From Chloroflexota bacterium (lineage in GTDB: Bacteria; Chloroflexota; Anaerolineae; Promineifilales; Promineifilaceae): a stretch of 37,269 nt of DNA. Positions 3,005 through 21,848 of the stretch are shown here, piece by piece. The notes under the pieces are model-generated. The model was not told the origin of the DNA. It did not search any database and saw only the letters and a program-made list of their open reading frames with translations. Both the position numbers and the translations under genes were made by a program. The stretch is from positions 1-37,269 of the forward strand of contig JAGNBF010000067.1 in the NCBI GenBank assembly GCA_018004935.1. Direction: 5' to 3'. Each line of letters begins with the position of its first letter. Position 1 is the stretch's first letter.

Positions 3005-3020
3005 GCCGAGGTTCACCGTT

Positions 3021-3225: not shown

Positions 3226-3233
3226 GTAAGAAC

Positions 3234-4460: not shown

Positions 4461-4481
4461 CCAACCGACAGCAAGTAAACT

Positions 4482-4535: not shown

Positions 4536-4548
4536 AAAGGACTTAATC

Positions 4549-5736: not shown

Positions 5737-5750
5737 ACCTGGCCCTCACC

Positions 5751-6506
5751 ATGACACGTCGTCCCCAACCCTTTCTCACCCAATTGCTTGATCTTACCCT
5801 CATCCAGCTTTCTAACTGGCGTTGGAGTTGGCGTAATGTCATCATCATTGGCATCTTCGTCCCCCTGATTTCCATGCTCGCGTTAGGATCTTTTGCCGGT
5901 AAACAGGATAAAGAAGCATTAAGTTACGTCTTCATTGGGAACCTGGTATTGTCTCTCCTGTTTTCGCACCAGGGGCGTGTGGCCAGCAACTTCGCCTTCA
6001 TGCGGGCGGCCGGAATGTTAGACTACTTTGCCACCCTACCCATCTACAACATCAGCCTGATTCTGGGGACATTGGCGGCCTTTTTTATCCTTTTTCTGCC
6101 CTCGTTGCTGGTTACGATCCTGGCCGGACAATGGCTGTTAGGGTTAACCTTGCATGTGCATGTGCTCGCCCTGCTCATTATCCCGCTGGTTTCTTTGCCT
6201 CTGGCTGGTTTGGGGGCTTACATCGGGACATTATCCCGCCGTCCAGAGGATTCAATGTCCATTAACCAACTTATTACCTTAATCTTTTTGGGCCTGGGAC
6301 CCGTGATGATGCCACCGGATCGGCTTCCGGGCTGGCTATTAAACCTGGGGTGGATCAGCCCGGCCAATTACGCGGCCTCAGCCTTGCGCCAGGTCATTCT
6401 TGGCCCCGTGACGGGCCGTTTGGGGTTGGATGTACTCATGTTAAGCCTGTTTACCGTTCTCAGTTTATGGCTGGTGGCTCGACAGATGGATTGGCGGCAA
6501 AAGTAA
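5751..6506 (+). CDS. ABC-2 type permease, second subunit
   Basis: The 251-residue protein has about six membrane helices and a topology typical of ABC-2 transporter permeases, with the conserved region HQGRVASNFAFMRAAGMLDY and, near the C-terminus, LGWISPANYAASALRQVILG. It begins 14 bases after the NatB-like gene and clearly belongs to the same operon. It is not obviously a paralogue of the first permease, so the exporter may be a heteromer, or one ATPase may serve two permeases. No GCGGCCGC site is present. Confidence 0.82.
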   Translation: MTRRPQPFLTQLLDLTLIQLSNWRWSWRNVIIIGIFVPLISMLALGSFAGKQDKEALSYVFIGNLVLSLLFSHQGRVASNFAFMRAAGMLDYFATLPIYNISLILGTLAAFFILFLPSLLVTILAGQWLLGLTLHVHVLALLIIPLVSLPLAGLGAYIGTLSRRPEDSMSINQLITLIFLGLGPVMMPPDRLPGWLLNLGWISPANYAASALRQVILGPVTGRLGLDVLMLSLFTVLSLWLVARQMDWRQK

Positions 6507-6599
6507 AACTCAGCGATAAGCGCAATTGGTCTACTCAGGTTTTCCCCAGTGAACCCAGCACCCTAACAATTCCTGGCCAGAAGGGGAAGAAACCAAGTT

Positions 6600-6681
6600 G
6601 AGCCGTTTTTCGCGGGCATTCGCCCGCGAAAAACGGCTCTTAAAAAGTTCCCCGCCCTGGGGGCGGGGTTAGGGGTGGGGG
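6600..6681 (-). repeat. Long-hairpin dispersed repeat (family A, copy 1)
   Basis: A perfect 18-bp stem (GAGCCGTTTTTCGCGGGC with its complement, four-base loop) is followed by AAAAAGTTCCCCGCC and a GC-rich arm ending GGGGTTAGGGGTGGGGG. It is the reverse-oriented counterpart of the copies at 9527, 20967, 29969 and 32989, with a different stem sequence. Lying 94 bases after the exporter operon, it may also act as its transcription end. Confidence 0.75.
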
Positions 6682-6723
6682 AAATCCAAGTACGCAACCG
6701 CCCTAAATCCAGCGATAAAAAAT

Positions 6724-6753
6724 TTGCCCAATCGTTCCCGAGTGTGCTATTAT
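6724..6753 (+). promoter_or_regulatory. Candidate sigma-70 promoter for rpsT
   Basis: TTGCCC (6724-6729) and TATTAT (6748-6753) are separated by 18 bases, and the start codon of rpsT follows about 90 bases later. This is the only promoter-like pair in the gap after repeat copy 1. It is a by-eye match without experimental support. Confidence 0.45.
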
Positions 6754-6791
6754 TCAACCCGCTCTTACGCCTGAACTCAAGAAAAGTTCGC

Positions 6792-6810
6792 CCGATAAAT
6801 TATTTATCGG
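6792..6810 (+). promoter_or_regulatory. Leader hairpin upstream of rpsT
   Basis: CCGATAAAT and ATTTATCGG form a perfect nine-base palindrome around a single T (closing to a shorter stem with a loop). It lies 20 bases before the GGAGG ribosome site. S20 is often autoregulated at translation in other bacteria, so a control role is possible, but no similarity to a known leader was recognised. Confidence 0.4.
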
Positions 6811-6842
6811 ATATTGGTTTTAAGTTTTCGGAGGACATCAAG

Positions 6843-7112
6843 TTGGCTAACACAGCATCTGCCAAAAAACGTATTCGTAGCTCTGAGCGCCGCCGGGTGC
6901 GCAATCGCCTTTTTCGCTCTACCGGGCGTACCCATGTGAAGAAAGCCCGCACCTTGATCGCCGGTGGCGATGCCAAAGCGGCGCAAGACGCGGTGCGTCA
7001 GGCCGTCAGTACCCTGGACAAAGCGGCCATCCGTGGGGTCATTCATCCCCGTAATGCCGCCCGCAGAAAAAGTCGCCTTATGCGTGCTCTCGCGGCCGCG
7101 AACAAGGCCTGA
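6843..7112 (+). CDS. rpsT: 30S ribosomal protein S20
   Basis: The 89-residue product begins LANTASAKKRIRSSERRRVR (Met at the start codon), is rich in Lys, Arg and Ala, and has the S20 pattern ASAKKRIR...RRRVRNR...KSRLMRAL. S20 binds 16S rRNA in the small subunit body. The start is a TTG at 6843, eight bases after a strong GGAGG (6830-6834); the frame is open further upstream but would add 56 non-ribosomal residues. TTG is also used for rpsT in some other bacteria. One GCGGCCGC site (7092) encodes the C-terminal Ala run, showing the palindrome occurs even in a short essential gene. It has its own promoter and terminator. Confidence 0.93.
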   Translation: MANTASAKKRIRSSERRRVRNRLFRSTGRTHVKKARTLIAGGDAKAAQDAVRQAVSTLDKAAIRGVIHPRNAARRKSRLMRALAAANKA

Positions 7113-7141
7113 TTTTTCTGCTTCTCATACCCAAAAAGAAA

Positions 7142-7160
7142 AGCGCGACTAAGTCGCGCT
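7142..7160. terminator. Bidirectional Rho-independent terminator
   Basis: AGCGCGACT and AGTCGCGCT form a perfect stem. On the plus strand it is followed by TTTTTT, ending rpsT. On the minus strand it is followed by TTTTCTTTTT, which would end the convergent regulator gene whose stop is about 100 bases away. Confidence 0.85.
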
Positions 7161-7208
7161 TTTTTGCGTTTAGCTGTAACGACAAAGTAATCGTTCGGAA
7201 ATAAGATG

Positions 7209-7236
7209 GGTGGCGCGGTCAGGAGACCGGCCACAA
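7209..7236. repeat. Dispersed palindrome GGTCAGGAGACC (copy 1)
   Basis: GGTGGCGCGGTCAGGAGACC then GGCCACA. The core GGTCAGGAGACC forms a small hairpin extended by GGTGG/CCACA-like arms. Other copies are at 9722-9748 and, reversed, 34608-34636. All lie at gene ends. Confidence 0.7.
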
Positions 7237-7258
7237 CAACCCCGTCAGTTCTAAACTC

Positions 7259-7945
7259 TCACACCCACCCTTCCAGGCGCAAAATGTAGCCTTTGCCTCG
7301 CACAGTTGTCAAATAGCGAGGGTGACTGGGATCTGCTTCAATCATCTCCCGAATCCAGCGTACATGTACATCCAGGGTGCGTGTGTCCCCCAAATAACTG
7401 GTTTGCCATACATTTTGCATTAACTGTATGCGGCTGATCAGCTCATTGGGATGGCGTAAAAACTCCTCTAACAGGCGGGTCAGCTTGGGCGTGATCCGTT
7501 TTTCCCCACGACCGTTTACTTCCAACGCACAACGATCTACATAGAGGGTAATTTCTCCGTAGCGAATCATAGATTCTTCGGTTATTTTAGGGGGTAAAAG
7601 GGTATGAATTCTGTTTAGGATTTTTCGTGCGGTAAAGGGACGCACGAGATGAACTTCGGCGATCATACCGGCATCTATGGGCTGGTTAGCCGAGCGGGCA
7701 TAGATAATAGGCACACCAGGAAGACACTGACGTAGTCGTCGGCAGTTCCTGGCCCCATTAGATCGCAAAGTGGAAGCATCGAAGATGACCAGATGGGGTG
7801 ACTGGTGTTCATTGCACACCCAATGATAGGCGGCCTGACCAGTCGTAACATGTTTTACCCAAAACCCAGCTTTTTCCAGCGCAGGTACTAAAGAAATATT
7901 GCCGGTGCTTTTCCCCTCAACAAGTAGAATGAGCGATCGTTTCAT
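7259..7945 (-). CDS. OmpR-type response regulator with degenerate receiver
   Basis: The 228-residue protein has an N-terminal CheY-like domain (about 1-120) and a C-terminal winged-helix DNA-binding domain (about 130-226; ITPKLTRLLEEF, TRTLDVHVRWIRE, TVRGKGYIL). In the receiver, the acidic pair after strand 1 is reduced (LLVEGKS), the expected phosphoacceptor Asp is kept (VIFDAST), and the conserved Lys is replaced by Arg (LVRPF). Phosphorylation may therefore be weak or absent. No histidine kinase gene is adjacent. It is convergent with rpsT and divergent from the phosphatase pseudogene. No GCGGCCGC site is present. Confidence 0.85.
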   Translation of the reverse strand: MKRSLILLVEGKSTGNISLVPALEKAGFWVKHVTTGQAAYHWVCNEHQSPHLVIFDASTLRSNGARNCRRLRQCLPGVPIIYARSANQPIDAGMIAEVHLVRPFTARKILNRIHTLLPPKITEESMIRYGEITLYVDRCALEVNGRGEKRITPKLTRLLEEFLRHPNELISRIQLMQNVWQTSYLGDTRTLDVHVRWIREMIEADPSHPRYLTTVRGKGYILRLEGWV

Positions 7946-8141
7946 AGCAACGGTTTTCCCTGTGCATGCTTTTACGCGAGCATGGGGTTGATTATAAAAG
8001 GAAACAATACAGGGACAAAAAATTTGGGTGGCAATTTAGGAATTGATCATCAGAGTGGATAATGATTGCCAATAGGGGAATTCGCGGCAACAATCTTCTT
8101 GATCCTGATGGGTTCAGGTCAGGCGAAAGGACGAAGGGAGA

Positions 8142-8881
8142 ATGAATCGGCGTCAGTTTCTTACTTATCTAACAACCGCGGCCGCGTCATGGCTATTACA
8201 TCGTTCATCTATCCGTCTCGGGGGTGAGTTTGTTTTGTTCATGTGGTCAGATGCTCTCACCAATACCTCAATCCGGGTTAAGGCGCGATTGAATCTGGAT
8301 AGTGATAGTGTGCGTCTGGTGGCCAGCACTCAACCTGATTTAAACAACCCGATATTTACCGGGTACGCGGCCGCGAACAGCACCAATAACCGGGTCGCCA
8401 GCCTCAACCTGTCTGGTCTGACCACCAATACCACCTACCATTACACCATTGAGGCTGAGGGGCAACGGAGTAGTTTACGCGGCCGCTTTCACACCCCCAC
8501 CTCTAGCCTCTTCAGTTTTAGCTTTGCCTGCGCTTCCTGCGCCCAAACTGGCAGTGATCATACCGTCTTCACCACCATTCAGCAGAATAACCCTCTCTTC
8601 TTCATCCACCTGGGCGATTTTCATTATCAAGACATTGGGAGCAACGATGTAAACCGGTTCCGGCAGGCATTTAACACGGTACTGGCATCCTCACCCAGGC
8701 CGATTTGTACCGCCATCTACCCCTGGCTTACATCTGGGATGATCATGACTATGGGCCGAATGATAGTGATGGTACATCACCCAGCCGCACCGCCGCTCGC
8801 CTCACTTACCAGGAATATGTGCCCCATTATCCTTTTGTCAGCGGCACTGGCGATGTACTCTTAGTCGTTACCCCATTTTGA
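8142..8881 (+). pseudogene. PhoD-like phosphatase, frameshifted and truncated
   Basis: The first frame starts MNRRQFLTYLTTAAASWLL, a Tat-type signal (RRQFL), followed by a fibronectin-like N-terminal domain and LGDFHYQDIG, the first metal-binding block of PhoD-family phosphatases. At about 8684 the homology moves into another frame, which reads LAYIWDDHDYGPNDSDG then RLTYQEYVPHYPF, the diagnostic WDDHD block, and ends at TGA 8879-8881. The remaining roughly 200 residues with the later His ligands are missing. A frameshift plus C-terminal deletion makes it non-functional unless the base call is wrong, and an error would restore only the N-terminal half. Three GCGGCCGC sites remain (8178, 8367, 8479). 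Confidence 0.75.
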
Positions 8882-8904
8882 CCAGAGGAGAATAAATAGG
8901 GCTT

Positions 8905-9393
8905 ATGAAACACACTGATGAACATGATCCATTGCGGCCGCATTCTCATGACCCCAACCCGGCCCCGCCTACCCCAGACCCCACCTTCATTCTCAGGGGG
9001 CCAGCGGGTCAATCTATCCATCTCACACCTGCTGATCTGACCTCTTTCCCTCATTGCCAGAGCCGACCGTTTTATATCGTCACCACCAGCCACGGGACAA
9101 CTGGCCCTTTCGTTTTCGGTGGCGTTACCTTAGTGGAATTACTCCAGAAATATGTTGTTTTACCCGAGTGGTTTCAAGTTGAAGCCGTAAGTGGTGATGG
9201 GTTTGGCACCCGTATTGAGGGAGAAGAACTGTTGCACCCGCATGGCAATGGCCCAATCATGCTTAGTACGCATCAGGATGGGCAACCCCTTACCCGGGAT
9301 AAAGGGTTAATCCGCCTTATTGTTCCCAGCGAGACGGATGACGCTTTGCGTCAGGTGAAATGGCTGGCCGAGATTCGGGTGATTGAACGCTAG
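8905..9393 (+). CDS. Small molybdopterin-binding-domain-like protein
   Basis: The 162-residue protein matches the pattern of the oxidoreductase molybdopterin-binding domain (sulfite oxidase/YedY-like fold): a segment HGTTGPFVFGGVTLVELL, then VEAVSGDGF, and near the end LIRLIVPSETDDALRQVKWL. The catalytic Cys that ligates molybdenum in true enzymes is not evident; the only Cys is in FPHCQSRP. It may therefore be a degenerate or cofactor-free member. The N-terminal 30 residues are His/Pro-rich, with no signal peptide. It starts 23 bases after the phosphatase pseudogene, preceded by AGAGGAG. One GCGGCCGC site (8934) lies near its start. Confidence 0.65.
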   Translation: MKHTDEHDPLRPHSHDPNPAPPTPDPTFILRGPAGQSIHLTPADLTSFPHCQSRPFYIVTTSHGTTGPFVFGGVTLVELLQKYVVLPEWFQVEAVSGDGFGTRIEGEELLHPHGNGPIMLSTHQDGQPLTRDKGLIRLIVPSETDDALRQVKWLAEIRVIER

Positions 9394-9404
9394 TATCGTT
9401 TTAC

Positions 9405-9860
9405 GAAAATACGACGTATCTTCTCAATGTTTTGGGGAAAACGTAGCCTGAGCTTGTCGAAGGCGGTTGGTTTTGGCAAGCTCAACCGACGGCACTCTGC
9501 TTTATTGATTGGTTTATCAGGGGGAACCCCCACCTCTGACCCCGCCCCCAGGGGCGGGGAACTTTTTTGGGCGCGGTTTTTTGGGGCCTTCGCCCCGAAA
9601 AACCGCGCCGGTATGTTCCCTCCGGGAATCGCTGGGGGGATGGGTCTTCCAACTAAACCGGCTACGCCTTGTGTAAAGCTGTACTAGTAGTGCGACAGAC
9701 AAGATTTGTCGGTTGGAAGATGGTGGCACGGTCAGGAGACCGGCCACAGCTATTCGACGGAATAAGTTTGTTGAACTACTAGCCTACTGCCACCCAGAGT
9801 GATGGCCTTCGCCCCGAAAAACCGCGCCGGTATGTTCCCTCCGGGAATCGCTGGGGGGAG
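9405..9860. repeat. Repeat-filled gap: CTTCGACAAGCTCAGG, two family-A copies, small element
   Basis: No gene. 9405-9470 is the reverse complement of part of 29634-29732 (ATCTTCTCAA...CCTGAGCTTGTCGAAG). About 9527-9660 is family-A copy 2, with the hairpin GCGCGGTTTTTTGGGGCC paired to CGCCCCGAAAAACCGCGC. 9804-9859 is an exact 56-bp duplicate of 9585-9640. The element at 9684-9782 lies between the two. The duplicate ends only 24 bases before the stop of the minus-strand gene at 9884. Confidence 0.75.
9684..9782. mobile_element. Small inverted-repeat element, CTAGTAGT ends
   Basis: The 99-bp element begins CTAGTAGTGCGACAGAC and ends with the approximate reverse complement (GTTTGTTGAACTACTAG). 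It carries the GGTCAGGAGACC palindrome in its centre. No clear target duplication is seen. It lies between the duplicated 56-bp segments and is non-coding. Confidence 0.55.
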
Positions 9861-9883
9861 TGTGTCATTTTCACAATTCGTGA

Positions 9884-12800
9884 TCAGGGCAGGGGCGCAA
9901 AACGAACAATGCGGTTGTTACCAACATCCGCGACATAGATGTTATCTGCCGCGTCAATAAATAGGCCGTTGGGGAGATTAAATTGACCATTGCCTGTGCC
10001 AAATTGACCGAAACGGGCCACGTAATTACCGTTGACATCAAAAACAATGACGCGATGACGATCTGGGTCGGTGATGTAGATGCGATTTTGGCTATCAATC
10101 GCCAGGAATGGTTTTTGTGTGTTGGTGTCGCCACGCCAGGCATTCACCCCCCAATCAAAAAAGGCGGTGAAGTTAGTGTCAAACCGCTGAATACGACCAT
10201 TCCAGGTGTCACCAAGGTATATGGTCCCATCTGGGGCTACGCTTAGCCCTACCGGTTCATACATCTGCCCCGCGGCCGCGCCAAATCCACCAAAACTTTG
10301 ACTAAATACACCCTCTTTGTCGAATATCTGAATACGGTGATTACCGGTATCAGCAATCAGAAGGCGTTCATTGTCCAAAACCACAATATTACGTGGCCCA
10401 TAGAAGATGTCATCGCCTACATCACCATTCGCCAAAGAGCCAAGTCGCCCAAATTGACTGATAAACGCACCATCAAGGCTAAATATTTGCACCCGATGGT
10501 TCCAGGTATCGGCAACATAAACATATTCTTCATCCACAGTGATACCCCAGGGATCATTAAATTGTCCCGGTTCGGCTCCTTGTGAACCCCAACTCCCCTG
10601 GTAAACCCCATCCCGATCAAAGTATTGCACCTGCGAATTACCCGCATCCAGCACATAAATTGTGCCATTGGCGGCCACGGCGACATTATGGGCATTAAAG
10701 AAACTGCCCGCCTGCGTAGAACCGGTCAGCACCAAATCTGGCTGTAACACCAGGTCATTCTCGGCATAAGGATCAATATAGGGATCAATATGGGCATTGG
10801 CCGCACCCGCACCAAAATCCCACAAACCAGCTTTCACATCATTACGGATGTAGAGGCGTAACCCGTGCCGCAGGGGCCAGTTACTCAGACGATAATCTTT
10901 GTTGAACAGTTCGCTGTAGCGAGTGTAATCACGGTAGAAGAAGATGTCCCAGAAGGCGTGTAAGACGGCGGGGCTGGTGAGACCACGCCGGGCGGGGGCA
11001 TCGGGCAGGCTAAAATCTAGTTCCTTGTTGGCCGTTCCGAATATCGCATCCCAGGAAATCTCCCGATAATCTTCGTTGGGCCACCAGATAAAGTTATAGT
11101 GGAATTCCTCATAATCGGTGCTTAAGGTATCACCAATGAGTTCTTGTACTTTATTGTAATTATTGTCGCCCACTATGATGACTGGGGCATCTAACAGATT
11201 ACGCCCTGGTTGATCGCCGTAGTACAGACGATTGGGGTAATTCCGTAAGTACCAGGTCATGGGCCAGGAAGAGTCGTTATCGAAGGCGACTTGCATACTA
11301 CGGTCGCCATAGAGCCGATAGGAGAGTTCTTCGATTTTGGTCATGACGGCCCCTTTGGTAGTGGGAGCGCCGTGGGCATAGACGAGATACTCGGTTGGGT
11401 AATCCCCATTGGGGTAGCTGGCCTGATAACTGGTGCGCAGGGTGAGCAAACTCAGGAGGATGAAGAGGGCGATAGTGCCGGTTAATGGACGAATTGTGGG
11501 TAAAACCCGCGGCCGCACCTGGAGCACCAGCCATACTAATCCCCCTACCACAATCAGGCTACCCAGAAACTGCCCTAACCGGCTCAGGTTAGCCGTAGAT
11601 TGATCGCCCAGGCTGACCTGACCAAAAAGGATGTATCGTCCGGCCAGGGCGATAGCTATCAGGAGCAAGGTCATCAATCCGGTGAGGCTGAGAGCTGGCC
11701 GGGTGAAAAACCAATCGCGCACAGCCGGTGTCAGCCGCTCATTGAAATACCACCCCACCAAGAGAGCCATCGGTGGTACAAAATGGGCGCTCAGCCAGGG
11801 CATCTTTTCCCCGGCCACGCTGTAAAAAATCCAGGAGAGGATGAGCCACCAGATGGTAAAGGGGATGAAGTCGAGTAAGGCTTCCGCATTGAAGAGATCA
11901 CGCCAGCCATTTTCCAGCCCCAATTCCGCCTTCATGCTCCGGCTAATGCTGAGGAACCAGAGCAAAACAGCCGCCAACAGAATAATCGCGGCCGCAACCA
12001 ACCCCGGCCATTTGAGCAAACCCGCCTGGTTTTCAGGAACGGTAATGGTTTGATAAGAGAGCCAGCGAATGACAAACCAAACATAGAGAAGTGTGGCTCC
12101 CCAGTTACGCCAGGTGACAAGGGTGGGATTAACCGTGCGGCCGCGCCACCACCAATCGCTTAAAATGACCAGCACCGTCAAACCCACCACCGGCAAGAAA
12201 GGTTGCCAATTGGCAAAAATCACTATCCGGCTAGAAAACCAGTTCACGAGGGTGTAAGCCAGAAGCGCCGTTAGGACAAACGCGCCCCAATAACGTGCCA
12301 GCGGCCGCAGACGGTTCTGCCCCACCCAATACCCTATGGCAACGGCAGAAAAGATAACCGATAGGTATTCATAAAGCGGTACGACAAAAAAATAGTAGAG
12401 CAATGGCTGGCTACCACGCTCCACTTCTTGTTGAGCCATCCAGTAGGCGAGGGAATCTACCATGCCGCTGGCCCAGCCGGGCAAGTTGGTAAACAGTGAG
12501 GTGTGTAAAATAGTAAAAATCGCCTGGAAAATAATTAAGGCGATCCAGAAGCGGCGTTGATGCCACCATAGGCCTAACAAAATAGCCGCGACCAGACAGA
12601 CCACCAGGAAAATGGTGATGTAAAAAGTGCCGGAAGCGAAGAAATTTCCCAGGCATTCCGGGTTAGTCAGACGATAAAGCGCCAGATTAAAAGGAGACAG
12701 TTGATCCTGGCCCACTATTTCACAGGTCAGGTTGAGCGAGTAATCACGAGGGGTCCAGCCGGTCAGGGCGGCGGGCACTGCGCCTAACATGGGCAAAATC

Positions 12801-13801
12801 AAGACCGTATAGAGAAGCACCAGATCAAATTCGCCATAATGATCCAATTGGGGGCGAATCGCTTTAGCGGTGAGGAAAACGGCATAAGCGGCCAAAGCCA
12901 ACCCGGCAAATTGCACCCAACGCATGAGGGTTTCGATTTGACTGGAAGTTGTAGAAGCATCTGCGGCCGCGGCCGCGTCTTCGGTGGGGTCAGCGGCAAA
13001 AGTTTCTGCCTGGTCTTCTCCCTCAGCGGCAGGGGTTTCGGCCTGGGCCGTGAGTTTCTGGACGGCAAAACCACCCGCCAATAAGGCCACCCCCAAACCG
13101 ATGAGAGCCAGCGGCCGCGCCAGACGGCTAATCTGCTCATGGAATACACCATCACGCCAGAGAAAAACAAACAGGCGGATGAGTAAGAAACTGCCAAAGA
13201 TGGCTGTATAAATAAAAGAGACTTCTTTGGTAGAGAAGAGAAGCGCATTCGCGGCCGCGAACCACCACAAATATTTTTCCTCACGACGACGCAAATACAT
13301 CCAGATAGCCCAAACAATGAGCAACGCCCACACCACCACAAAGGCTTCATTACGGATGTACCGGGCATAATAGACGGTATAGGGAGAAATCAGGAAAATA
13401 AAACTAACAACCAACGCCCCAGTACGTCCCAGCCAGTTACGGAAGAAGTAGGGTAACAAAATCAGCACGACCCCAAACAAAGCGGTGGGAATCCGAGCAG
13501 TGAAATCATTGGCCCCAAACAGCCAGTAACTAAGGGCGGTGATGTGGAATAAGAAGGGGCCATGCATCAACGGGGTATGGTCATACCCTTGCCCGTCATA
13601 AAACTGGAAGGAGTATTGCACATGCAGGCTTTCATCATGGCTCACCACCCGGTCGCCCAGGCTCCAGAAGCGGCTCAAAATGGCCAGGATGACGAAGGTG
13701 GTATAGAGGACTTTTTCCCAATCCAGAGCATAAAACACGGCCAGGATTTGCGGCCGCGGTTCAGGCATTATCTCGTCCGGTATCGTTGTCAGTTCACTCA
13801 T
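9884..13801 (-). CDS. GT-C glycosyltransferase/NHL-propeller protein (TIGR03663, Agl23-like), paralogue B
   Basis: The 1305-residue protein has an N-terminal polytopic GT-C domain with the luminal acidic motif SHDESLH (about 54-60), the usual catalytic or metal site in PMT/GT39-related enzymes. A soluble domain follows the motif AGEKMPWLSAHF. The C-terminal 300 residues hold NHL repeats (VADTWNHRVQIF, IADTGNHRIQIF, VADVGNNRIVRF) forming a beta-propeller. The family accompanies TIGR03662/DUF2298 proteins, which lie downstream here. The start ATG at 13801 is chosen because MSELTT aligns with MTDLTT of the paralogue; a GTG at 13810 overlaps the previous stop and is an alternative. It is the last gene of the operon. 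Ten GCGGCCGC sites. Donor and acceptor are unknown. Confidence 0.85.
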   Translation of the reverse strand: MSELTTIPDEIMPEPRPQILAVFYALDWEKVLYTTFVILAILSRFWSLGDRVVSHDESLHVQYSFQFYDGQGYDHTPLMHGPFLFHITALSYWLFGANDFTARIPTALFGVVLILLPYFFRNWLGRTGALVVSFIFLISPYTVYYARYIRNEAFVVVWALLIVWAIWMYLRRREEKYLWWFAAANALLFSTKEVSFIYTAIFGSFLLIRLFVFLWRDGVFHEQISRLARPLALIGLGVALLAGGFAVQKLTAQAETPAAEGEDQAETFAADPTEDAAAAADASTTSSQIETLMRWVQFAGLALAAYAVFLTAKAIRPQLDHYGEFDLVLLYTVLILPMLGAVPAALTGWTPRDYSLNLTCEIVGQDQLSPFNLALYRLTNPECLGNFFASGTFYITIFLVVCLVAAILLGLWWHQRRFWIALIIFQAIFTILHTSLFTNLPGWASGMVDSLAYWMAQQEVERGSQPLLYYFFVVPLYEYLSVIFSAVAIGYWVGQNRLRPLARYWGAFVLTALLAYTLVNWFSSRIVIFANWQPFLPVVGLTVLVILSDWWWRGRTVNPTLVTWRNWGATLLYVWFVIRWLSYQTITVPENQAGLLKWPGLVAAAIILLAAVLLWFLSISRSMKAELGLENGWRDLFNAEALLDFIPFTIWWLILSWIFYSVAGEKMPWLSAHFVPPMALLVGWYFNERLTPAVRDWFFTRPALSLTGLMTLLLIAIALAGRYILFGQVSLGDQSTANLSRLGQFLGSLIVVGGLVWLVLQVRPRVLPTIRPLTGTIALFILLSLLTLRTSYQASYPNGDYPTEYLVYAHGAPTTKGAVMTKIEELSYRLYGDRSMQVAFDNDSSWPMTWYLRNYPNRLYYGDQPGRNLLDAPVIIVGDNNYNKVQELIGDTLSTDYEEFHYNFIWWPNEDYREISWDAIFGTANKELDFSLPDAPARRGLTSPAVLHAFWDIFFYRDYTRYSELFNKDYRLSNWPLRHGLRLYIRNDVKAGLWDFGAGAANAHIDPYIDPYAENDLVLQPDLVLTGSTQAGSFFNAHNVAVAANGTIYVLDAGNSQVQYFDRDGVYQGSWGSQGAEPGQFNDPWGITVDEEYVYVADTWNHRVQIFSLDGAFISQFGRLGSLANGDVGDDIFYGPRNIVVLDNERLLIADTGNHRIQIFDKEGVFSQSFGGFGAAAGQMYEPVGLSVAPDGTIYLGDTWNGRIQRFDTNFTAFFDWGVNAWRGDTNTQKPFLAIDSQNRIYITDPDRHRVIVFDVNGNYVARFGQFGTGNGQFNLPNGLFIDAADNIYVADVGNNRIVRFAPLP

Positions 13802-13806
13802 AATTG

Positions 13807-16800
13807 TCACTGTGTTGGGGTAGGTTCAGGCTCATTGGTGGGTGTGATTGTGGCGGTATCACCGGTTAGCGTTACCTCATTCGTAGAGGTGGCTGTGGCT
13901 GTGGCCGTCGCGGTAGCCCGTCGGGTGGGGGTAGCTGAAGGGGTTGGTGAGGCTTCAACCGTAGCTGTCGCTTCTGGTGTGGCAGTCACTTCTGGCGTTG
14001 GCGTAGGGGTGGGGGCCAAAGTCAGCGACGCATAACGCACAATCCGATTTTGGGTCGTGTCTACCACATAAATCCGATCTTGGGCATCAATGGCAATACC
14101 CGTGGGCAGGCCCAGACGCCCACCATCCAGGCCATCCAGACTAAATGTACCGATGAAATTACCGGCGGCGTCAAAAACCAGAACCCGTGATTGTTCGGGA
14201 TCGGTCAGGAAAACCTGCCCCCGACTATCTATGGCAATATAGGGTTTATTATTGGTAGATTCGCCGCTCCAGGTCTGCACGGGCCAGGCAGTTACCGGGC
14301 GCAGATCACCACTAAAGAATTGCACCTGATGATTCCAGGTATCCACAACGGCATAAAGGCCATCTGGTGTACGGGCCAGCCCTACTGGTTCACTAAACAG
14401 ACCGGTAAACGTGCCGCGGCCGCCGATAGCCTGGAGTGGTGTGCCATTTTGATTCAATAATTGCAGGCGATGATTACCCGTATCCGTCACCAATAACAGA
14501 TCATCCGCCAACACCAGAACACTCCGAGGGCCAAAGAACAACCCTAATCCTTCCAACGGGGCACTATTCTGATCTCCCGGCTCGCCAATGGTAGACAGAT
14601 ATTCGCCGGTGAGGCTAAACTTCTGAATGCGATGATTCCAGGTATCGGCAACAAAAACGGCTTCATCATTAACCGCAATGCCCCAGGGTTCATTGAGTTG
14701 GCCCGGTTCGCTCCCATTTTCGCCCCAACTACGCAAAAAGTTTCCATCTGCGTCTAGCACCACAATACGATGATTGCCTGAGTCAGCTATGTACAGATTA
14801 CCGTCAGGGCCAATGGCCAGGTTACGCGGGGCCGCCAGCCCCCCTTCTTCGCTATTCGTTATGATTAGTTCAGGGTTTACCGCCAAGGGTTGGCCCTGGT
14901 ACACATCTTCCTGGGGCACGTCTACCGCCGGAATATCGGCAGGCACATCGGCCGCGACGGCTTCTCCTTCTTGCCACAATTGGGTTACGGCATCATTACG
15001 GATATACAGCCGGAACTCATGCCGCAGGGGCCATTGGCCAGAGGTAAATGTACCCCCAAAAACCTCGCCGTATTTGGTGTAATCGCGATAAAAAAAGATG
15101 TCCCATAAGGCCCGGCGCACATCGGCGCTGAGAATACCTCGTTGGGGCGGATCTTCAGTAACGACACCGGTGGGGTTGGGATAAACACCCAGAAAGGCAC
15201 TCCAGCCCAGGCTACGGTAATCTTCCATCGGCCACCAGAGGAAGGAAAGGGTATAGGTGCGATAATTTTGGTCCAGGGATTCCTGCAAGGTAGGATCTAT
15301 TTTGCCCCAATTACGATTGCCGATGAGGATAACGGGGGCATCCAGAATGCTGGCATTGGGGGTTGACCCATAATAATATTTGTTGGGATAGTCGCGTAAA
15401 TACCAGGTATAAGGCCAGGCTACGTCATCGTCGTAAGCCACCTTGATGCTTTTGTCGCCATACATTTGCATGGAGAGTGTTTCTAGCTGGTTGAGAACGA
15501 CATCTTTGGTAGAGGGGTTGCCGTGGGCATAGACGAGAAATTCGTTGGTGTAATCAGCATTGGGGCCATTGGCCATATAGTTAAAACGAATGGTAATAAC
15601 GGCGAGGAGAATGAAGAAGGCGAAGATGCGGGTCTGCGGCCGCAAACTTTCATCCATTCCTTCTACTTTAAAATAGAGGTAATAGATACCCAGGGCAATC
15701 AGAGCACCCCCCAGCAGAACCACCAACCCTACCAGATTATTCTCAGCGCCATTGCTCAAGCGCAACCCACCCAACAAAATAGGGCCGAGGGCGAACAAAA
15801 CGGCCAGAATAAAGGTGATCATCAGCCCCAACAGGAGCCACCAGCGACGGGTTAGCAGGGTGATGCGGTTGAGCGCGGCCGCTTTTTCGTTCATGTACCA
15901 GCCCGACAAAGCGGCCAGAGGCAAAATGAAGTGGGTACTGAGCCAGGGCATCTTCTCGCCAGCAACGGTATACAACACAAACGAAAAGATCACCCACCAG
16001 ATCAAGAACGGAACAAAATCCCCTAATACCTCGGCGGCAAAGATCGTAGACCAGTTCCGTTTGATTTTGTACTCATCTTTCAGGTGGGCCAGGTAAACCA
16101 GCGCCCAATAGATCCCCCCTGCCAATAAGATCAGACCAGCGACCAATGTCCCATTCAAACGATTGGGGCTGGCAATGGTCGCATCCAGATTAAGATTGGT
16201 ATACCAATTTACCAGACTGTAACCGATTAGCGCCAACAGAATGACACTGAACCAATAGCCGATAATTTTGTGGAGGCGGTTTTTTTGTGCCCATAACCGC
16301 GTTGCTAATAAGGCAAACGTGAGGGACAAAAATTCATAAAAAGGCAGGGCAAAGAGGTAGTAAAAATTAGGCTGACTGCCGCGCTGAACTTCTTGTTGCT
16401 CCATCCAATAAGCTAATGAGTCCAACATACCACTTTGCCACCCTTTGGGATAGGAAAAGAGGGCGGTAAATAGAGCCACAAAAATGAGGTGGAAGATACC
16501 CCCGGCAATGAGCCAGCGCCGCCGATCCCACCATAAGCCCAAAGCGACAGAAACAGCCAATAAGCCGATGAGCATGAGCATTACATGCGCTCCCCCTGAG
16601 TTGAAATAGGAGCGCCAACATTCCCCATCTACGAGGCGGCTGAAGAAAAGGGAGAAGGGGGACATGGAAGCCTGTTCGGGGAAAACACAGGTGGCGGTGT
16701 TGTAATCACGAGGTGTCCAGCCAGTCATAACGGCAAAGACGGGGGTGATAGTAGGGAGGGTGAAGGTAGTAAAGAGGATGATGAGGTCAAATTCAGCGTA

Positions 16801-17745
16801 CTCTTGTAGCCGCGGCCGCAACTCTTTTACCCCCATAAATAAACCAATCCCCACCAGCACCACCCCACCAAACTGTATCCATCCCCAGATTTTGTTCGTT
16901 TCCGCGGCCGCGATAGGGGTTGTTTGTGGAGCATTGGGATCAGCGGCAAACCCTTCATCCTCAGTTTCGGGGGTTGTTGTGGTAGCTTCCGGCTCATTTA
17001 ACTGCCGCGCCCCCACAAACCCGCCCCCCAGGACAATCAGACCGAAGGCGACAAGCATGAGTGGCGTTGTCAGGTTGCCCAGGGCTTTACGAAACCAGGA
17101 TGTTTGCCAGAGAATCAATCCCAGGCGTAACACCAGGAAGCTCCCAAAAATGGCGATGTAGATGTAACTATTTTCCTTGGTAGCAAACATGAGAGCGTTC
17201 GCGGCCGCGAACCACCACAAATATTTGTCCTTTCGTTCCCGCAGGTAATACCAGATAGCCAGGAAAATGACCGCCGCCCAGACAATGATAAACATATCCT
17301 CGCGGATATAACGGGAGTAATAGGTGATATAGGGGGAGATAAGCAACAAAAAACTGGTAAACAAAGCCCCAACCCGCCCTACCCAAGGGCGCAAAAACAG
17401 CGGCAACATCACAAAAATCACCCCGATAAGCGCCACCGGGAGTCGGGCAGACCCATCACTCACCCCAAAGAGCCAATAAAAGGTAGCGGCACTATGAAAA
17501 ACCATCGGCCCATGCATCATGGGGTTATGCTGATAACCTTCCCCCAGGTAATACTGATAGGCATATTGGGTGTGAAGGCTTTCATCATGGCTCACTACCC
17601 GATCATCTAGCCCATAAATGCGGCTAAAGAGAGCCAGAATGAGAATGATCAGGTAAAGCGCTTTCTCCCAATCCAGGGCAAAGGAAGTGCGTAGCGGCCG
17701 CGCAAGAAAAGAGGTCGGTGTGGTAGGAGTTGTCAGATCAGTCAT
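13807..17745 (-). CDS. GT-C glycosyltransferase/NHL-propeller protein (TIGR03663, Agl23-like), paralogue A
   Basis: The 1312-residue protein is collinear with the gene at 9884: SHDESLH at about 52-58, AAANALMFATKE, AGEKMPWLSTHF, then NHL repeats (IADSGNHRIVVLD, VADTWNHRIQKF, VTDTGNHRLQLL, VVDTWNHQVQFF). It differs in a roughly 70-residue C-terminal tail of Thr/Pro/Ala/Ser (TPTPTPEVTATPEATAT, then an (AT)n run), absent in the paralogue and coded by GT-rich tandem DNA. Such tails are typical exported linkers and possible O-glycosylation targets. It starts two bases after the anti-sigma stop and ends four to nine bases before the start of paralogue B, implying translational coupling. Seven GCGGCCGC sites, several at different places from the paralogue. 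Confidence 0.86.
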   Translation of the reverse strand: MTDLTTPTTPTSFLARPLRTSFALDWEKALYLIILILALFSRIYGLDDRVVSHDESLHTQYAYQYYLGEGYQHNPMMHGPMVFHSAATFYWLFGVSDGSARLPVALIGVIFVMLPLFLRPWVGRVGALFTSFLLLISPYITYYSRYIREDMFIIVWAAVIFLAIWYYLRERKDKYLWWFAAANALMFATKENSYIYIAIFGSFLVLRLGLILWQTSWFRKALGNLTTPLMLVAFGLIVLGGGFVGARQLNEPEATTTTPETEDEGFAADPNAPQTTPIAAAETNKIWGWIQFGGVVLVGIGLFMGVKELRPRLQEYAEFDLIILFTTFTLPTITPVFAVMTGWTPRDYNTATCVFPEQASMSPFSLFFSRLVDGECWRSYFNSGGAHVMLMLIGLLAVSVALGLWWDRRRWLIAGGIFHLIFVALFTALFSYPKGWQSGMLDSLAYWMEQQEVQRGSQPNFYYLFALPFYEFLSLTFALLATRLWAQKNRLHKIIGYWFSVILLALIGYSLVNWYTNLNLDATIASPNRLNGTLVAGLILLAGGIYWALVYLAHLKDEYKIKRNWSTIFAAEVLGDFVPFLIWWVIFSFVLYTVAGEKMPWLSTHFILPLAALSGWYMNEKAAALNRITLLTRRWWLLLGLMITFILAVLFALGPILLGGLRLSNGAENNLVGLVVLLGGALIALGIYYLYFKVEGMDESLRPQTRIFAFFILLAVITIRFNYMANGPNADYTNEFLVYAHGNPSTKDVVLNQLETLSMQMYGDKSIKVAYDDDVAWPYTWYLRDYPNKYYYGSTPNASILDAPVILIGNRNWGKIDPTLQESLDQNYRTYTLSFLWWPMEDYRSLGWSAFLGVYPNPTGVVTEDPPQRGILSADVRRALWDIFFYRDYTKYGEVFGGTFTSGQWPLRHEFRLYIRNDAVTQLWQEGEAVAADVPADIPAVDVPQEDVYQGQPLAVNPELIITNSEEGGLAAPRNLAIGPDGNLYIADSGNHRIVVLDADGNFLRSWGENGSEPGQLNEPWGIAVNDEAVFVADTWNHRIQKFSLTGEYLSTIGEPGDQNSAPLEGLGLFFGPRSVLVLADDLLLVTDTGNHRLQLLNQNGTPLQAIGGRGTFTGLFSEPVGLARTPDGLYAVVDTWNHQVQFFSGDLRPVTAWPVQTWSGESTNNKPYIAIDSRGQVFLTDPEQSRVLVFDAAGNFIGTFSLDGLDGGRLGLPTGIAIDAQDRIYVVDTTQNRIVRYASLTLAPTPTPTPEVTATPEATATVEASPTPSATPTRRATATATATATSTNEVTLTGDTATITPTNEPEPTPTQ

Positions 17746-17747
17746 AT

Positions 17748-18260
17748 TTACGGGTTAGGAAATAAAAAGGCGATAGGGGTAGCCTGTGTCACCGGTGTCA
17801 CCAGAAAAGGTTGGTTTTCTGGGGCTTCCGTGCTGGTAACCGGTATGGTCAATGTATGGGTGACGGTAGCCGGTACGGGCGTTATCGTTGCGGTTGCTAC
17901 CACATGGGTGGGTGAGGGATCCCCACCCCAGTCAGCGCCATAAGCCGGGCCTAAACTCAAACTGGCCACAAGTAAAAACAGGAAGACGCCCACCAGGGCC
18001 AGACTTCTCTGCCAGGAGGCGGTGGTGTACCAGGAACGATGACGCAGAGGTACGGGTGGCATCAAGTGGGCCAGGCGGGTTGGGGCAGGAGTGGAGACAA
18101 GCATCAATGTATCACGTGTGAGGTGAACAAGGTGGCGCTCGGCCTGCAACAACTGCCGACACCGCGCACACGCGGCCGCATGCTGTTCCACACGTACCTT
18201 TTCCCCCGCCGGGAGCAAATCCAACAGATAATCAGAAATAAGGTCAGTGATATGATCCAT
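17748..18260 (-). CDS. Zinc-finger anti-sigma factor
   Basis: The 170-residue protein has the anti-sigma zinc motif HxxxCxxC (His27, Cys31, Cys34 in EQHAAACARC) in an N-terminal cytoplasmic domain (about 1-45), a membrane helix (about 85-105, LALVGVFLFLLVASLSLG), and a Thr/Pro/Val-rich exported tail (about 110-170). It should bind and inhibit the adjacent ECF sigma factor. Its ATG overlaps the sigma stop by one base (TAATG), the standard arrangement for sigma/anti-sigma pairs. The exported tail resembles the TP-rich tail of the downstream Agl23-like protein and could be the sensed or glycosylated part. Confidence 0.85.
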   Translation of the reverse strand: MDHITDLISDYLLDLLPAGEKVRVEQHAAACARCRQLLQAERHLVHLTRDTLMLVSTPAPTRLAHLMPPVPLRHRSWYTTASWQRSLALVGVFLFLLVASLSLGPAYGADWGGDPSPTHVVATATITPVPATVTHTLTIPVTSTEAPENQPFLVTPVTQATPIAFLFPNP

Positions 18261-18880
18261 TAAATCTCTTCCATCAATCGTTTCTTCAATTCCTGATGCG
18301 CCAACCGCATCCGTGATTCGGCTGTTTTGGCCGGAACCCCCACAATATCCCCTATTTCGGCATAGGTCAGCCCTTCGTAATAACGCAAAAGGGCCGTTTC
18401 GCGCAATTTAGGCGAAAGTTGTTTTAACGCTTGCCACACAACCTTTTGTTCATGGGTAAGTGCTAACGTTTCATCAGGAAGTGGGGTTTCCGTATCAGTT
18501 ACATCCTGCGTGACAAGCTGACTCAGGGAAAAGGAAGGGAGCCATTTGCGACGCCGTTTGTTACGACACCGGCTCAAAGCAATCTGGTAAAGCCAGGTTT
18601 TAAAAGCCGCCTTCCGACCATCAAAACGGTGCAGGGTCCGAAAAGCATATTCAAAGCTATCCTGCAACACCTCTTCAGCATCTTCCCTATTTTGTAGCAG
18701 ACCATAAGCCAGCCGATAAATCATGCCCGACAAGCGGCTATACAGTACCCCATAAGCCGCCTCTTCTCCTGCCAGACAACAATCAATCAGGGATTGATAT
18801 TCGTCCCCAGTTTTAGCCACAATGGCCGCAGGCGTAAAGGAAAGGGTTTCACTCATAATTATAGAAATAGGTACTACCAT
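18260..18880 (-). CDS. ECF RNA polymerase sigma factor
   Basis: The 206-residue protein has sigma region 2 (about 36-110: AYGVLYSRLSGMIYRLAYGL, REDAEEVLQDSF, FKTWLYQIALSRCRNKRRR) and region 4 (about 150-205: LSPKLRETALLRYYEGL, TYAEIGDIVGVPAKTAESRM), without regions 1.1 and 3, as in ECF factors. The ATG at 18880 overlaps the stop of the upstream glycosyltransferase gene by one base; an in-frame ATG at 18856 (MSETLSF) is an alternative. It is followed directly by its anti-sigma factor. Its target promoter is not identified; autoregulation of this glycosyltransferase operon is a natural guess. Confidence 0.9.
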   Translation of the reverse strand: MVVPISIIMSETLSFTPAAIVAKTGDEYQSLIDCCLAGEEAAYGVLYSRLSGMIYRLAYGLLQNREDAEEVLQDSFEYAFRTLHRFDGRKAAFKTWLYQIALSRCRNKRRRKWLPSFSLSQLVTQDVTDTETPLPDETLALTHEQKVVWQALKQLSPKLRETALLRYYEGLTYAEIGDIVGVPAKTAESRMRLAHQELKKRLMEEI

Positions 18881-20679
18881 TATCGGGCCAGGTCTGTCCT
18901 AAGCCAGACATTGATCTTCTGTTCATTGACCGGCATGGCACTATCATGGAAAAACCACCAGCGCAAGGTGGCAAAAAGGTTGCCCTGGTACTCCGCTTCT
19001 TGAGCACCCAGCCCCTGGCGCAACAGACCAAACTCACTACCCAGATAACTCGGTGGCGCGGCCGCGCCCTCCGCCGCATCCGTGATCAGCAAATCCTGGC
19101 TGGGGTTATCTGGCAAGATGTCACCCACTTCATACAGGGCAAAATCGCGTAGCGTCCAGCGCAACACCGGACTATCCACCGTGCTAAAAATCGTGAGATC
19201 AAACTGGGAGTTCGTTGCCTGCAAAGCCAGTTCCTGACTCATTTCCGCGAAGAACTGAATATCATCATCTGTTCCCTGGCGTACCCACCGCTCTCGGGGA
19301 TCATTAGCGGCTTCATGAGTAAGCCACCAGGCCGTACCCCAGGTATAGAGCAAAAACAGAGGCAACAAACCGGCCATTACCCCCTGCCAGGTCGCCAGAG
19401 CATGAAAACGTGACAGGTAAATAAGGGCAAAGAGTGCCGTGCCGCCCAATACCAACGCCCGATAAACATTGCCATTTATCTCGGCCTCTACGGCAGTACG
19501 GCTGAACAAATGTATATTGATGTAAACCATCAAGCCCAAGACAAATAACAACGCCGCTACCAACCAGCGCCAATCGGGGGCCGGAATAAGCCAGATTTCA
19601 TTGACAAACAGGCCAATCAAGATGTAACCCGGTACAGTCAGGAGTAAAACATTGTCCAGGTTGCCCCGCTGAAGAAAGACAAGCAACAGAACAGCCGTGA
19701 ACCAATAAATGAAAAAGGTGGGAAACGGCCGTCCCTGCCAGGTAGACCAGGCAATAGCAACGGCTCCCAAAAGGAGCAAAATCAATTCATATCGTCCCAG
19801 GGCCAGAATAGGTTCCACCCATTGGATCAACTCGCCCTGGAAACTGATTTGCCCCAACCAGAGAGCGGGCAGGGTAGCCGTTAACCCCAGGCCTGGTAAA
19901 AACCAAAAGAAAAGGGTGCTTAAGCCGAATACCGCGGCCGCAAAAACAATTCCTGCCGACCGCCAATCAGCCCGCTCCGGCCAACTGGTGGGCACGGCCA
20001 CATACACTGGCCCATCCTCATCCATCTGTTCGCGGTAAAAAATGGGTGGTCCCAAACGAGCCTGAGCCAGATAAGCCAGCCCTACCGTCAGGAAAAAGCC
20101 ATAAAATAGAGGAGCACTGGTAAGGCCGAGAGCCAGAGCCATCGCGGCCGCGTGCAACCATCTTTTCTCCCCTTCTTCCTGATAACGCAACCAGGCCACC
20201 AACAGCAATCCCCCAGCCAATAACCCTAACATCGAACCATCGGCCGTGCGCGAGGCAACTCCCAGTGTAGGCGAAACAGCCAACAACAACCCGGCCACCA
20301 ACGCCCCCATAGCCCCCAACCAGCGCCGCATCAGCCACGGGAGCAAGACCAGGCCTATGCCCGCCAGAGCCGGAATCAGTCGCACCACCACCTCATCCGC
20401 ACCTAAAACAGGCATCAACAAAGCCGTCAGGCTCACATAGGCGGAACTGGTAGCCGGATAACTCACCATGGCCTGGGGTTGCCACAATTGCCAGGCCGAA
20501 AGGGCGTTAGACGCTTCGCCCGGTGCGAGAGGAATAGCACTCAGATTCGTCAACCGTAGCACCCCGGCCAGGATGAGCACAGGCACAAAAAGGCCATCCG
20601 CAACGGTCAGGCGGGAGAACCAGCCTGTGGTTTCTATTTCTGTCTTTTCATTCTCGGTTTCGTCGTAAGCAATTGTCAT
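18880..20679 (-). CDS. GT39/ArnT-like membrane glycosyltransferase
   Basis: The 599-residue protein has about 11-12 membrane helices and a soluble C-terminal domain of about 130 residues. The first external loop has PLAPGEASNALSAW, the position where GT-C enzymes keep their catalytic acidic residue, here Glu alone rather than Asp-Glu. Family members transfer a sugar from a polyprenyl-phosphate donor to protein, lipid or glycan. The start is the ATG at 20679 (MTIAYDETENEK); a TTG 81 bases upstream would add a poorly supported hydrophobic extension. It is the first gene of the run continuing through the sigma/anti-sigma pair and both Agl23-like genes. Three GCGGCCGC sites. Confidence 0.8.
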   Translation of the reverse strand: MTIAYDETENEKTEIETTGWFSRLTVADGLFVPVLILAGVLRLTNLSAIPLAPGEASNALSAWQLWQPQAMVSYPATSSAYVSLTALLMPVLGADEVVVRLIPALAGIGLVLLPWLMRRWLGAMGALVAGLLLAVSPTLGVASRTADGSMLGLLAGGLLLVAWLRYQEEGEKRWLHAAAMALALGLTSAPLFYGFFLTVGLAYLAQARLGPPIFYREQMDEDGPVYVAVPTSWPERADWRSAGIVFAAAVFGLSTLFFWFLPGLGLTATLPALWLGQISFQGELIQWVEPILALGRYELILLLLGAVAIAWSTWQGRPFPTFFIYWFTAVLLLVFLQRGNLDNVLLLTVPGYILIGLFVNEIWLIPAPDWRWLVAALLFVLGLMVYINIHLFSRTAVEAEINGNVYRALVLGGTALFALIYLSRFHALATWQGVMAGLLPLFLLYTWGTAWWLTHEAANDPRERWVRQGTDDDIQFFAEMSQELALQATNSQFDLTIFSTVDSPVLRWTLRDFALYEVGDILPDNPSQDLLITDAAEGAAAPPSYLGSEFGLLRQGLGAQEAEYQGNLFATLRWWFFHDSAMPVNEQKINVWLRTDLAR

Positions 20680-20775
20680 ATCTGGTATTACTGAAGCAAG
20701 AGAGAGTATGAGCAAAAGCAAGGATGTCTGGTTTACCCCTTGTACTCGCTCCGAACTCAAAACTCAAGGGTTATA

Positions 20776-20890
20776 CTGTAGAGCTTAAGATAATGATTTT
20801 GGGTACGGGCTGGCCTTGTGCCTGCCCTGTCACGAGAGGGCAACCACGAGGGTTGCCCGTACAGCCAAAATCTTTTTCTTGAAAACTATG
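20776..20890. mobile_element. Inverted-repeat element with CTGTAG/CTATG ends and GGCAACC core
   Basis: Ends (CTGTAGAGCTTAAGATAATG and the reverse complement of TTTTTCTTGAAAACTATG) resemble the CTATAG element at 356-471. The centre (CTGGCCTTGTGCCTGCCC and GGCAACCACGAGGGTTGCC) is shared with the 8-bp-duplication elements at 30138, 34658 and 35941. No clear target duplication is seen. It may be a chimera of two element families. Confidence 0.55.
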
Positions 20891-21170
20891 GCAACGGGCA
20901 CAATCTGCGGTTTTTTCGCCCTGTCGCCTTATCGCCCCGTCGGGTATATCCGAGGCCACCTCCATCCCTAACCCCGCCCCCAGGAGTGGGGAACTTTTCT
21001 CGGCACGGTTTGGTGGGTGTCCGCCCGCCAAACCGCACCGGTGGGTTTCTCCCCTTCCCTCTGGGAAAGAGACGGGGGATGGGTCTTCAACCTGGGCTTA
21101 CCCAATCTGTTACCGCCAATAACATGTCATTTTATGATCGTGGTAACTATATACACGGTCACAAAAAATA
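20883..21170 (+). repeat. Dispersed repeat R joined to family-A hairpin repeat (copy 4)
   Basis: About 20883-20965 matches 32895-32990 and, reversed, 3155-3220 (core TTTTTTCGCCCTGTCGCC). About 20967-21090 is a family-A unit with the hairpin around 21001-21040; its arms pair with a few mismatches or wobbles. The tail GATGGGTCTTCA...CAATCTGTTACCGCC...TTTATGATCGTGGTAAC at 21076-21155 recurs at 30087 and 33166. No gene between 20680 and 21206. Confidence 0.7.
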
Positions 21171-21206
21171 AACCGCACAACGTTCAACTTATTTAATCGT
21201 TGTCCC

Positions 21207-21674: not shown

Positions 21675-21767
21675 GATTGAGTTGTAACTCCTGGTATGGT
21701 TCAGGTCTGCGTTAGCAGTTTGTAAGCTGATTTAACAAATGAAACACGCCCTTTACCCAATCGCCCT

Positions 21768-21842: not shown

Positions 21843-21848
21843 GACAGC

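Follow-up and report, generated by a model that had tools for sequence, protein, structure and literature searches.

A near-saturating palindromic octamer and its lineage-specific forms in a family of Chloroflexota

The window analysed here is the whole 37,269-nucleotide stretch of contig JAGNBF010000067.1 from a Chloroflexota bacterium. It contains two paralogous genes on the minus strand, which are 45% identical, and 57 exact copies of the palindromic octamer GCGGCCGC, against 0.96 expected from 100 shuffles (standard deviation (sd) 1.06). Among relatives the core CGGCCG is common and the outer base pair varies, so that a G dialect (GCGGCCGC), an A dialect (ACGGCCGT) and a T dialect (TCGGCCGA) can be distinguished. 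In the genome of the window (G000, 7.98 Mb) the octamer fills most of the coding places at which the encoded peptide permits it, and in A- and T-dialect genomes the respective octamer does likewise.

The two paralogues were aligned by codon with 33 sequences of related genomes. The resulting 35 sequences are near full length, partial matches having been excluded, and the one from G069 has an internal stop. The genes and their copies of GCGGCCGC are as follows, with columns referring to this alignment.

13807..17745, minus strand: paralogue 1, PMT_2-type membrane glycosyltransferase with NHL repeats, 1312 aa, 7 octamers (Pfam PMT_2 6.7e-08, NHL 1e-36)
9884..13810, minus strand: paralogue 2, same architecture, 1308 aa, 10 octamers (Pfam PMT_2 1.4e-09, NHL 8e-37)
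17694..17701: paralogue 1, column 89, Ala-Arg-Pro-Leu; ACGGCCGT on the same column in nine A-dialect orthologues
17201..17208: paralogue 1, column 582, Ala-Ala-Ala; in common with 13251
16904..16911: paralogue 1, column 900, linker, Ala-Ala-Ala
16812..16819: paralogue 1, column 992, Leu-Arg-Pro-Arg
15875..15882: paralogue 1, column 2175, Ala-Ala-Ala
15636..15643: paralogue 1, column 2426, Leu-Arg-Pro-Gln
14416..14423: paralogue 1, column 3685, Gly-Gly-Arg; across an alignment gap
13750..13757: paralogue 2, column 83, Pro-Arg-Pro-Gln; non-homologous to 17694
13251..13258: paralogue 2, column 582, Ala-Ala-Ala; in common with 17201
13111..13118: paralogue 2, column 722, Ala-Arg-Pro-Leu; ACGGCCGT there in G014
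12969..12976: paralogue 2, column 873, linker, Ala-Ala-Ala; ACGGCCGT (Thr-Ala-Val) in seven A-dialect orthologues
12963..12970: paralogue 2, column 879, overlaps the 12969 site; ACGGCCGT there in G014
12301..12308: paralogue 2, column 1550, Leu-Arg-Pro-Leu
12137..12144: paralogue 2, column 1723, Arg-Gly-Arg
11988..11995: paralogue 2, column 1911, Ala-Ala-Ala
11509..11516: paralogue 2, column 2399, Val-Arg-Pro-Arg
10272..10279: paralogue 2, column 3708, Ala-Ala-Ala
215..35443: span of all 57 copies in the window, 40 of them outside both paralogues

The original prediction, made from the letters of the window, had proposed that sites turn over between the two paralogues, and each of the nine coordinates it named holds an exact copy of GCGGCCGC. 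The 7 and 10 sites of the paralogues have a single column in common, column 582 (13251 and 17201, in AAANAL), which had been recognised as shared; the other sites stand at different columns, and many are in another frame. A second shared site had been placed near the N-terminus (13750 and 17694), and this one is not confirmed, as columns 83 and 89 are two codons apart. The position of 17694 reads Arg-Pro-Leu in 22 of the 34 other aligned sequences, and 13750 lies upstream of that place. The sites at 14416 and 10272, described as neighbours in different frames, are indeed close, in different frames and non-homologous, and those at 16904 and 12963/12969 all lie within one gappy linker. Orthologues with every site at identical positions, named as the mark of ancient inheritance, did not appear in the alignment.

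The aligned place in the other paralogue permits the octamer in just 2 of 16 directed comparisons (the gap-spanning site of the 17 was excluded). These are the shared column seen from both sides, and the octamer is present there. In addition, four of the 17 sites stand on a column that carries ACGGCCGT in an A-dialect orthologue (P 0.00015; in-frame circular shifts give an expectation of 0.18). Some of the turnover therefore consists of outer letters being swapped at a fixed place, or of the same permissive places being used more than once. Sites turn over between the paralogues because the encoded peptides diverge under near saturation, with some in-place exchange of outer letters, and not through local hot spots. 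A search with part of paralogue 1 in the phage collection gave no match.

The whole genome of G000 contains 12,040 copies of GCGGCCGC, or 1,509 per Mb, and two of the reversed control word. The next highest count in a draw of 399 further Chloroflexota genomes was 2,136, in a genome with 1,950 copies of the control. A 382-kb sample of G000, made up of the window and 20 further stretches (L121-L140), was used for closer analysis. In this sample the ratio of observed to expected copies (O/E) under a dinucleotide model is 58.8, the highest of 256 palindromic octamers. The enrichment is the same inside open reading frames (ORFs) of at least 80 codons (548 copies against 9.6 expected, 57-fold) and in the rest of the sample (35 against 0.63, 56-fold). 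The cause therefore acts on DNA and not on protein.

We then calculated occupancy: among the coding places at which the peptide is compatible with the octamer, the share that actually holds it. Genes were represented by the longest ORFs of at least 200 codons that do not overlap. For GCGGCCGC in G000 it reaches 476 of 578 places (82%), where codon usage predicts 47.6 (8%). Ranking all palindromic octamers that have 20 or more permissive places (254 in number) puts it first, and the next value is 0.33. Frame 0 (Ala-Ala-Ala) holds 297 of the 476 occupied sites. Occupancy is 0.84-0.93 when the next site lies 50-800 bases away, 0.80 at 800-1,600 bases and 2 of 5 beyond; below 50 bases, where overlapping alanine runs partly exclude each other, it is 0.46 (43/93). 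Local saturation would show as even spacing, but in G000 spacing is near random (coefficient of variation (CV) 1.04 against 1.01 simulated); in A genomes it is slightly even (CV 1.01 against 1.10 simulated, sd 0.035).

The octamer of G000 extends to YGCGGCCGCR, as the preceding base is C or T in 1,034 of 1,166 cases counted on both strands. At 292 of the 297 frame-0 sites, G or A is the third base of the final alanine codon, compared with 3,113 of 8,832 alanine codons overall. One-letter variants of GCGGCCGC are not enriched in G000, even at the outer letters. As a separate observation, the sample avoids many palindromic hexamers: GAGCTC occurs 0 times where 51.7 copies are expected, CTGCAG once (83.9), GGGCCC five times (262.6) and GCCGGC five times (162).

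Across the 52 genomes of the family, ACGGCCGT is the most widespread form, with 2,887-15,176 copies in 28 genomes (controls 40-459). From these counts and rounded genome sizes its density is 437 (G030) to 2,102 per Mb. Two genomes, G031 and G007, carry TCGGCCGA, with 9,414 and 7,668 copies. Among the 35 genomes counted whole and 16 sampled, GCGGCCGC is the main form in G000 alone. Another six genomes have CGGCCG with mixed flanks (G075 being placed by whole counts alone), and in the three examined occupancy is intermediate, at 0.09-0.66 per octamer. The remaining 15 genomes, 8 of them in genus g4, have no saturated form. In a quick one-gene tree of 38 rows, the 22 A rows form one clade (SH-like approximate likelihood-ratio support (SH-aLRT) 90) and G000 lies outside it.

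Occupancy for the A dialect is 887 of 1,029 places in the pooled samples of the 28 genomes (lowest in G030, 8/15), and for the T dialect 37 of 54 and 25 of 33 in the two genomes. The strength is about equal for all dialects, with natural-log (ln) odds of 3.95-4.2. Samples of the 15 genomes without a saturated form gave 13/113 for ACGGCCGT, 30/268 for GCGGCCGC and 10/167 for TCGGCCGA. The dialects may be 10-mers, since in G031 and G007 an A or a T precedes TCGGCCGA in 180 of 186 cases. Outside the family, the named loci among L024-L080 (at least 8 kb each) showed no comparable excess of a dialect octamer except L028 and L029, which we take as family members; the bare core CGGCCG is 5.1-fold in excess in L026. 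Separately, TGCCGGCA, the control word for ACGGCCGT, occurs 3,665 times in 4.0 Mb of G011 (genus g12, 62% complete) and at most 886 times in other family genomes. In a 14-kb sample of G011 (L215) it is about 16-fold in excess and CGGCCG is depleted; G011 perhaps has another dialect on a different core.

In syntenic stretches of congeners, ACGGCCGT was identical in 812 of 930 directed comparisons (87%), a figure that covers three A genera (g22, g5, g2) and this octamer only, with directed pairs within a genus not independent. The same comparison gave 29,663 of 80,921 (37%) for 8-mers of equal G+C and 76 of 317 (24%) for other equal-G+C palindromes. Octamer sites are therefore inherited and kept in the A genera, and the suggestion of repeated local gain rather than simple inheritance, put forward together with the turnover between paralogues, is not supported as a general rule. 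Among the directed one-letter differences from ACGGCCGT, C/T at position 2 is the most frequent (13 of 49, the other cytosines accounting for 3; not independent and not polarised), possibly a trace of methylation or of T-to-C repair.

Tripeptide use follows the DNA dialect. TAV is 6.3-10.3-fold over expectation in the five A genomes examined and at most 2.6-fold in ten other genomes, SA[D/E] is 3.0-3.5-fold over in both T genomes, and AAA is 4.4-fold over in G000. The palindrome goes with altered proteins.

Presumably acquired restriction-modification-type genes on two G000 contigs span 5.35 kb without a single octamer (8.1 expected, P 0.0003), and acquired DNA therefore seems to be octamer-free on arrival. 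A phage-like stretch (L123:4191-15237, on G000:C62) has 20 copies of GCGGCCGC in 11.3 kb, with 0.53 expected, and 13 of 18 permissive places are filled. Seven of its nine scanned proteins match PHROGs families, including three methyltransferases, MazG and a repressor; no clear structural gene was found among the nine. The largest methyltransferase matched 37 viral loci. One of these, L285 (IMGVR_UViG_3300033417_000002, 36411-58458), encodes a methyltransferase 50% identical to it and carries 48 copies of ACGGCCGT in 22 kb, where 0.55 are expected; 7 of 10 scanned proteins match PHROGs, among them a topoisomerase at 3.6e-95. The dialect stands at host density in this viral contig, whose host may belong to this family. 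Each of the other 36 loci has at most nine copies of any of the three octamers, and a second phage-like protein had no relative in the viral contigs searched.

Our preferred reading, which we hold with moderate confidence, is that the octamer is held in place by a lineage-specific recognition factor inside the cell. The exact and symmetric octamer suggests a homodimeric reader. Such a DNA-binding factor would have the octamer as its recognition site and act in the cell on any resident DNA. Selection or biased repair would favour sequences with the exact site, at a strength of about 4 in log odds. A shift in the outer base pair that the factor prefers would create a new dialect, which the genome would then follow. 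Cytosine methylation of the core might take part in some lineages, seemingly without being required.

Several points weigh against this reading. No gene for the factor was singled out in the analysis. Cytosine-5 (C5) methyltransferases (PF00145) occur in 22 of the 37 carriers and in 2 of the 15 other genomes (Fisher P 0.0047, uncorrected for kinship and genome size). G000 has no congener in the dataset, so the conservation figures concern the A dialect and not GCGGCCGC. The AAA figure is weak by itself, because AAA is also 3.0-fold over expectation in the dialect-free G023 and G072. Whole-genome counts of GCGGCCGC cover 35 of the 52 genomes, with 16 more represented by samples and G075 left out, and the relatives' samples measure 3-87 kb each, with no readable bases from G075, G035 and G045. 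CGGCCG itself is in excess in samples of genomes counted as being without a dialect (2.4-3.8-fold in g4, 2.1-4.1-fold in g20) and, in the sister family f2, in the three genomes sampled (2.3-5.2-fold). Finally, the tree comes from one gene and its base is unresolved.

Among the alternatives, the model of Elhai (PMC4390886) accounts for much and is tenable though less than probable. It states that a cytosine methyltransferase marks CGGCCG and that methyl-directed mismatch repair keeps the mutations that complete the octamer, so that a new specificity leads to a new dialect. The distribution of PF00145 and the prominence of C/T at position 2 among the congeners' single-letter differences both fit this model. 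Moreover, among 16 C5 proteins compared, the three from the mixed-flank G016, G073 and G074 (contigs C405, C6 and C250) are 69-76% identical. However, a relative of this shared enzyme is also encoded in the dialect-free G023 (contig C2, next to a Vsr gene; 66-76% identity over the four), and 15 of the 37 carriers have no PF00145 match. Four of these 15 are also without a PF01555 match over the cut-off: G062 (97% complete), G030 (95%), G005 (94%) and G002 (78%). PF01555 matches 41 of the 52 genomes; in the 11 others, these four included, the best E-value is 6.2e-5 or worse, or there is no match. Methylation looks dispensable because these four carriers have no match over the cut-off to either cytosine-methyltransferase family searched, although negatives in carriers may also reflect bin incompleteness or other methyltransferase families. 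In addition, the GmeC rule requires G before the methylated first C, where dialects A and T have A or T, and G000 shows no saturation at a density of about one site per kb. Vsr repair was considered as a general cause and rejected, because PF03852 is found in just 8 of the 52 genomes and not in G000.

An uptake signal, for which competent cells would prefer DNA of their own dialect and molecular drive would spread it, seems unlikely. A report on Neisseriaceae describes uptake-sequence dialects on a constant core, in thousands of copies and matching phylogeny (PMC3630211). According to a second report the known uptake sequences are non-palindromic (PMC1939737), unlike the three octamers here, which are all perfect palindromes. 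The octamer-free restriction-modification-type stretches, if acquired, fit such a signal; the phage-like stretch and the viral contig, which carry the octamer at host density, do not. ComEC (PF03772) is present in 47 of the 52 genomes, but also in genera without the palindrome, and does not separate carriers from non-carriers.

A restriction-modification system that cuts GCGGCCGC, protects itself and thereby selects its own sites is a very improbable cause. At L121:7213-9421 (G000:C180) a putative restriction enzyme is encoded after a C5 methyltransferase gene, and the Cys-Pro-Phe and Val-Cys-Pro-Arg-Arg motifs of this enzyme may resemble NotI. NotI appeared in a profile search with the enzyme at E 1.3, and REase_II matched weakly at 2.9e-6; Pfam gave nothing for it, and its structure model (mean predicted local distance difference test (pLDDT) 46.6) was too poor for a search. 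Homologues of 46-50% identity occur in G013, G015 and G069, those of G013 and G069 with C5 and Vsr genes nearby; in these genomes GCGGCCGC is not enriched (465 copies against 785 of the control in G013, 99 against 128 in G015, O/E 0.9 in the G069 sample). The C180 genes themselves are octamer-free, and we rejected this pair as the cause on these two grounds. The putative restriction enzyme had no match in the plasmid collection, and plasmid-record matches of the methyltransferase are all below 60% identity. Ordinary base composition, codon bias or poly-alanine can practically be discarded: alanine-rich stretches do hold many sites, as frame 0 shows, but shuffles, the dinucleotide model and the codon-usage expectation rule out chance, and neither the equal O/E outside ORFs nor the two control copies fit.

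We therefore place most weight on an intracellular reader, because the methyltransferase families searched have no match over the cut-off in some carriers, ComEC does not separate carriers from the rest, and the palindrome is present in phage-like DNA. A bolder form of this reading, which we regard as rather doubtful, takes the dialect as a methylation-free mark of self that a dimeric protein reads on all resident DNA. Temperate viruses would then acquire the dialect of their host, and a change of preference at one base pair would rewrite about ten thousand sites and thousands of tripeptides.

Elsewhere in the window, two adjoining large DUF2298 membrane proteins are encoded at 21849-29515, the second of which also has a PMT_2 domain. 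A 752-aa protein at 30376-32634 matches the hydrazine synthase alpha middle domain (8.3e-10) and has a PD40 repeat.

The enzyme NotI recognises GCGGCCGC, and EagI recognises CGGCCG. Sites of restriction-modification systems are expected to be rare or neutral in their host and not saturated; the octamer here is saturated. The DNA uptake sequence (DUS) of Neisseriaceae affects the proteome. The octamers resemble it in the constant core, lineage dialects and thousands of exact copies described for it in PMC3630211, and differ from it in being palindromic and present in phage-like DNA. Among the matches listed by our search of the open-access literature, outside which most subscription papers lie, we recognised no report of comparable palindromes that either came from Chloroflexota or had CGGCCG as their core.

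The closest likeness is to the highly iterated palindromes (HIPs) of cyanobacteria, HIP1 (GCGATCGC) and the alternate HIPs, which are also palindromic, strongly overrepresented, dispersed, of similar density and exactness, and variable among lineages. According to PMC4390886, HIPs occur at about 500-2,500 per Mb, HIP1 was described in 1995, and the link of HIP sequences to methyltransferases was still termed a mystery in 2015. The broad features of HIPs are found here, namely overrepresentation, density per Mb (G030 lying just below, at 437) and dispersal in and between genes. The core is CGATCG there and CGGCCG here, and the organisms are cyanobacteria and Chloroflexota, respectively, the named loci that code for relatives coming from Chloroflexota/Anaerolineae bins. 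Here the A dialect also covers a whole clade of genera, G000 shows no enrichment of one-letter variants even at the outer letters, and not every carrier has an evident cognate methyltransferase. In the sample of G000, GCGATCGC itself fills none of its 171 permissive places. The palindrome is thus a case of the HIP kind in another phylum, with neither the sequence nor the phylum of HIP1. On stretches of two cyanobacterial plasmids HIP1 occupies 78 of 127 and 50 of 82 places (ln odds 4.3 and 3.3, against 3.95-4.2 here), and this similar strength of about 4 suggests one kind of process behind all dialects and HIP1. The family is a natural experiment, as it combines three exact dialects with a flank-indifferent state and has carriers beside non-carriers; the responsible gene should therefore be findable through phylogenetic profiling and through a DNA-contact residue that covaries with the outer letter. 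The dialects could help to assign phages to hosts, and their diversity makes the cause of a HIP-like pattern testable.

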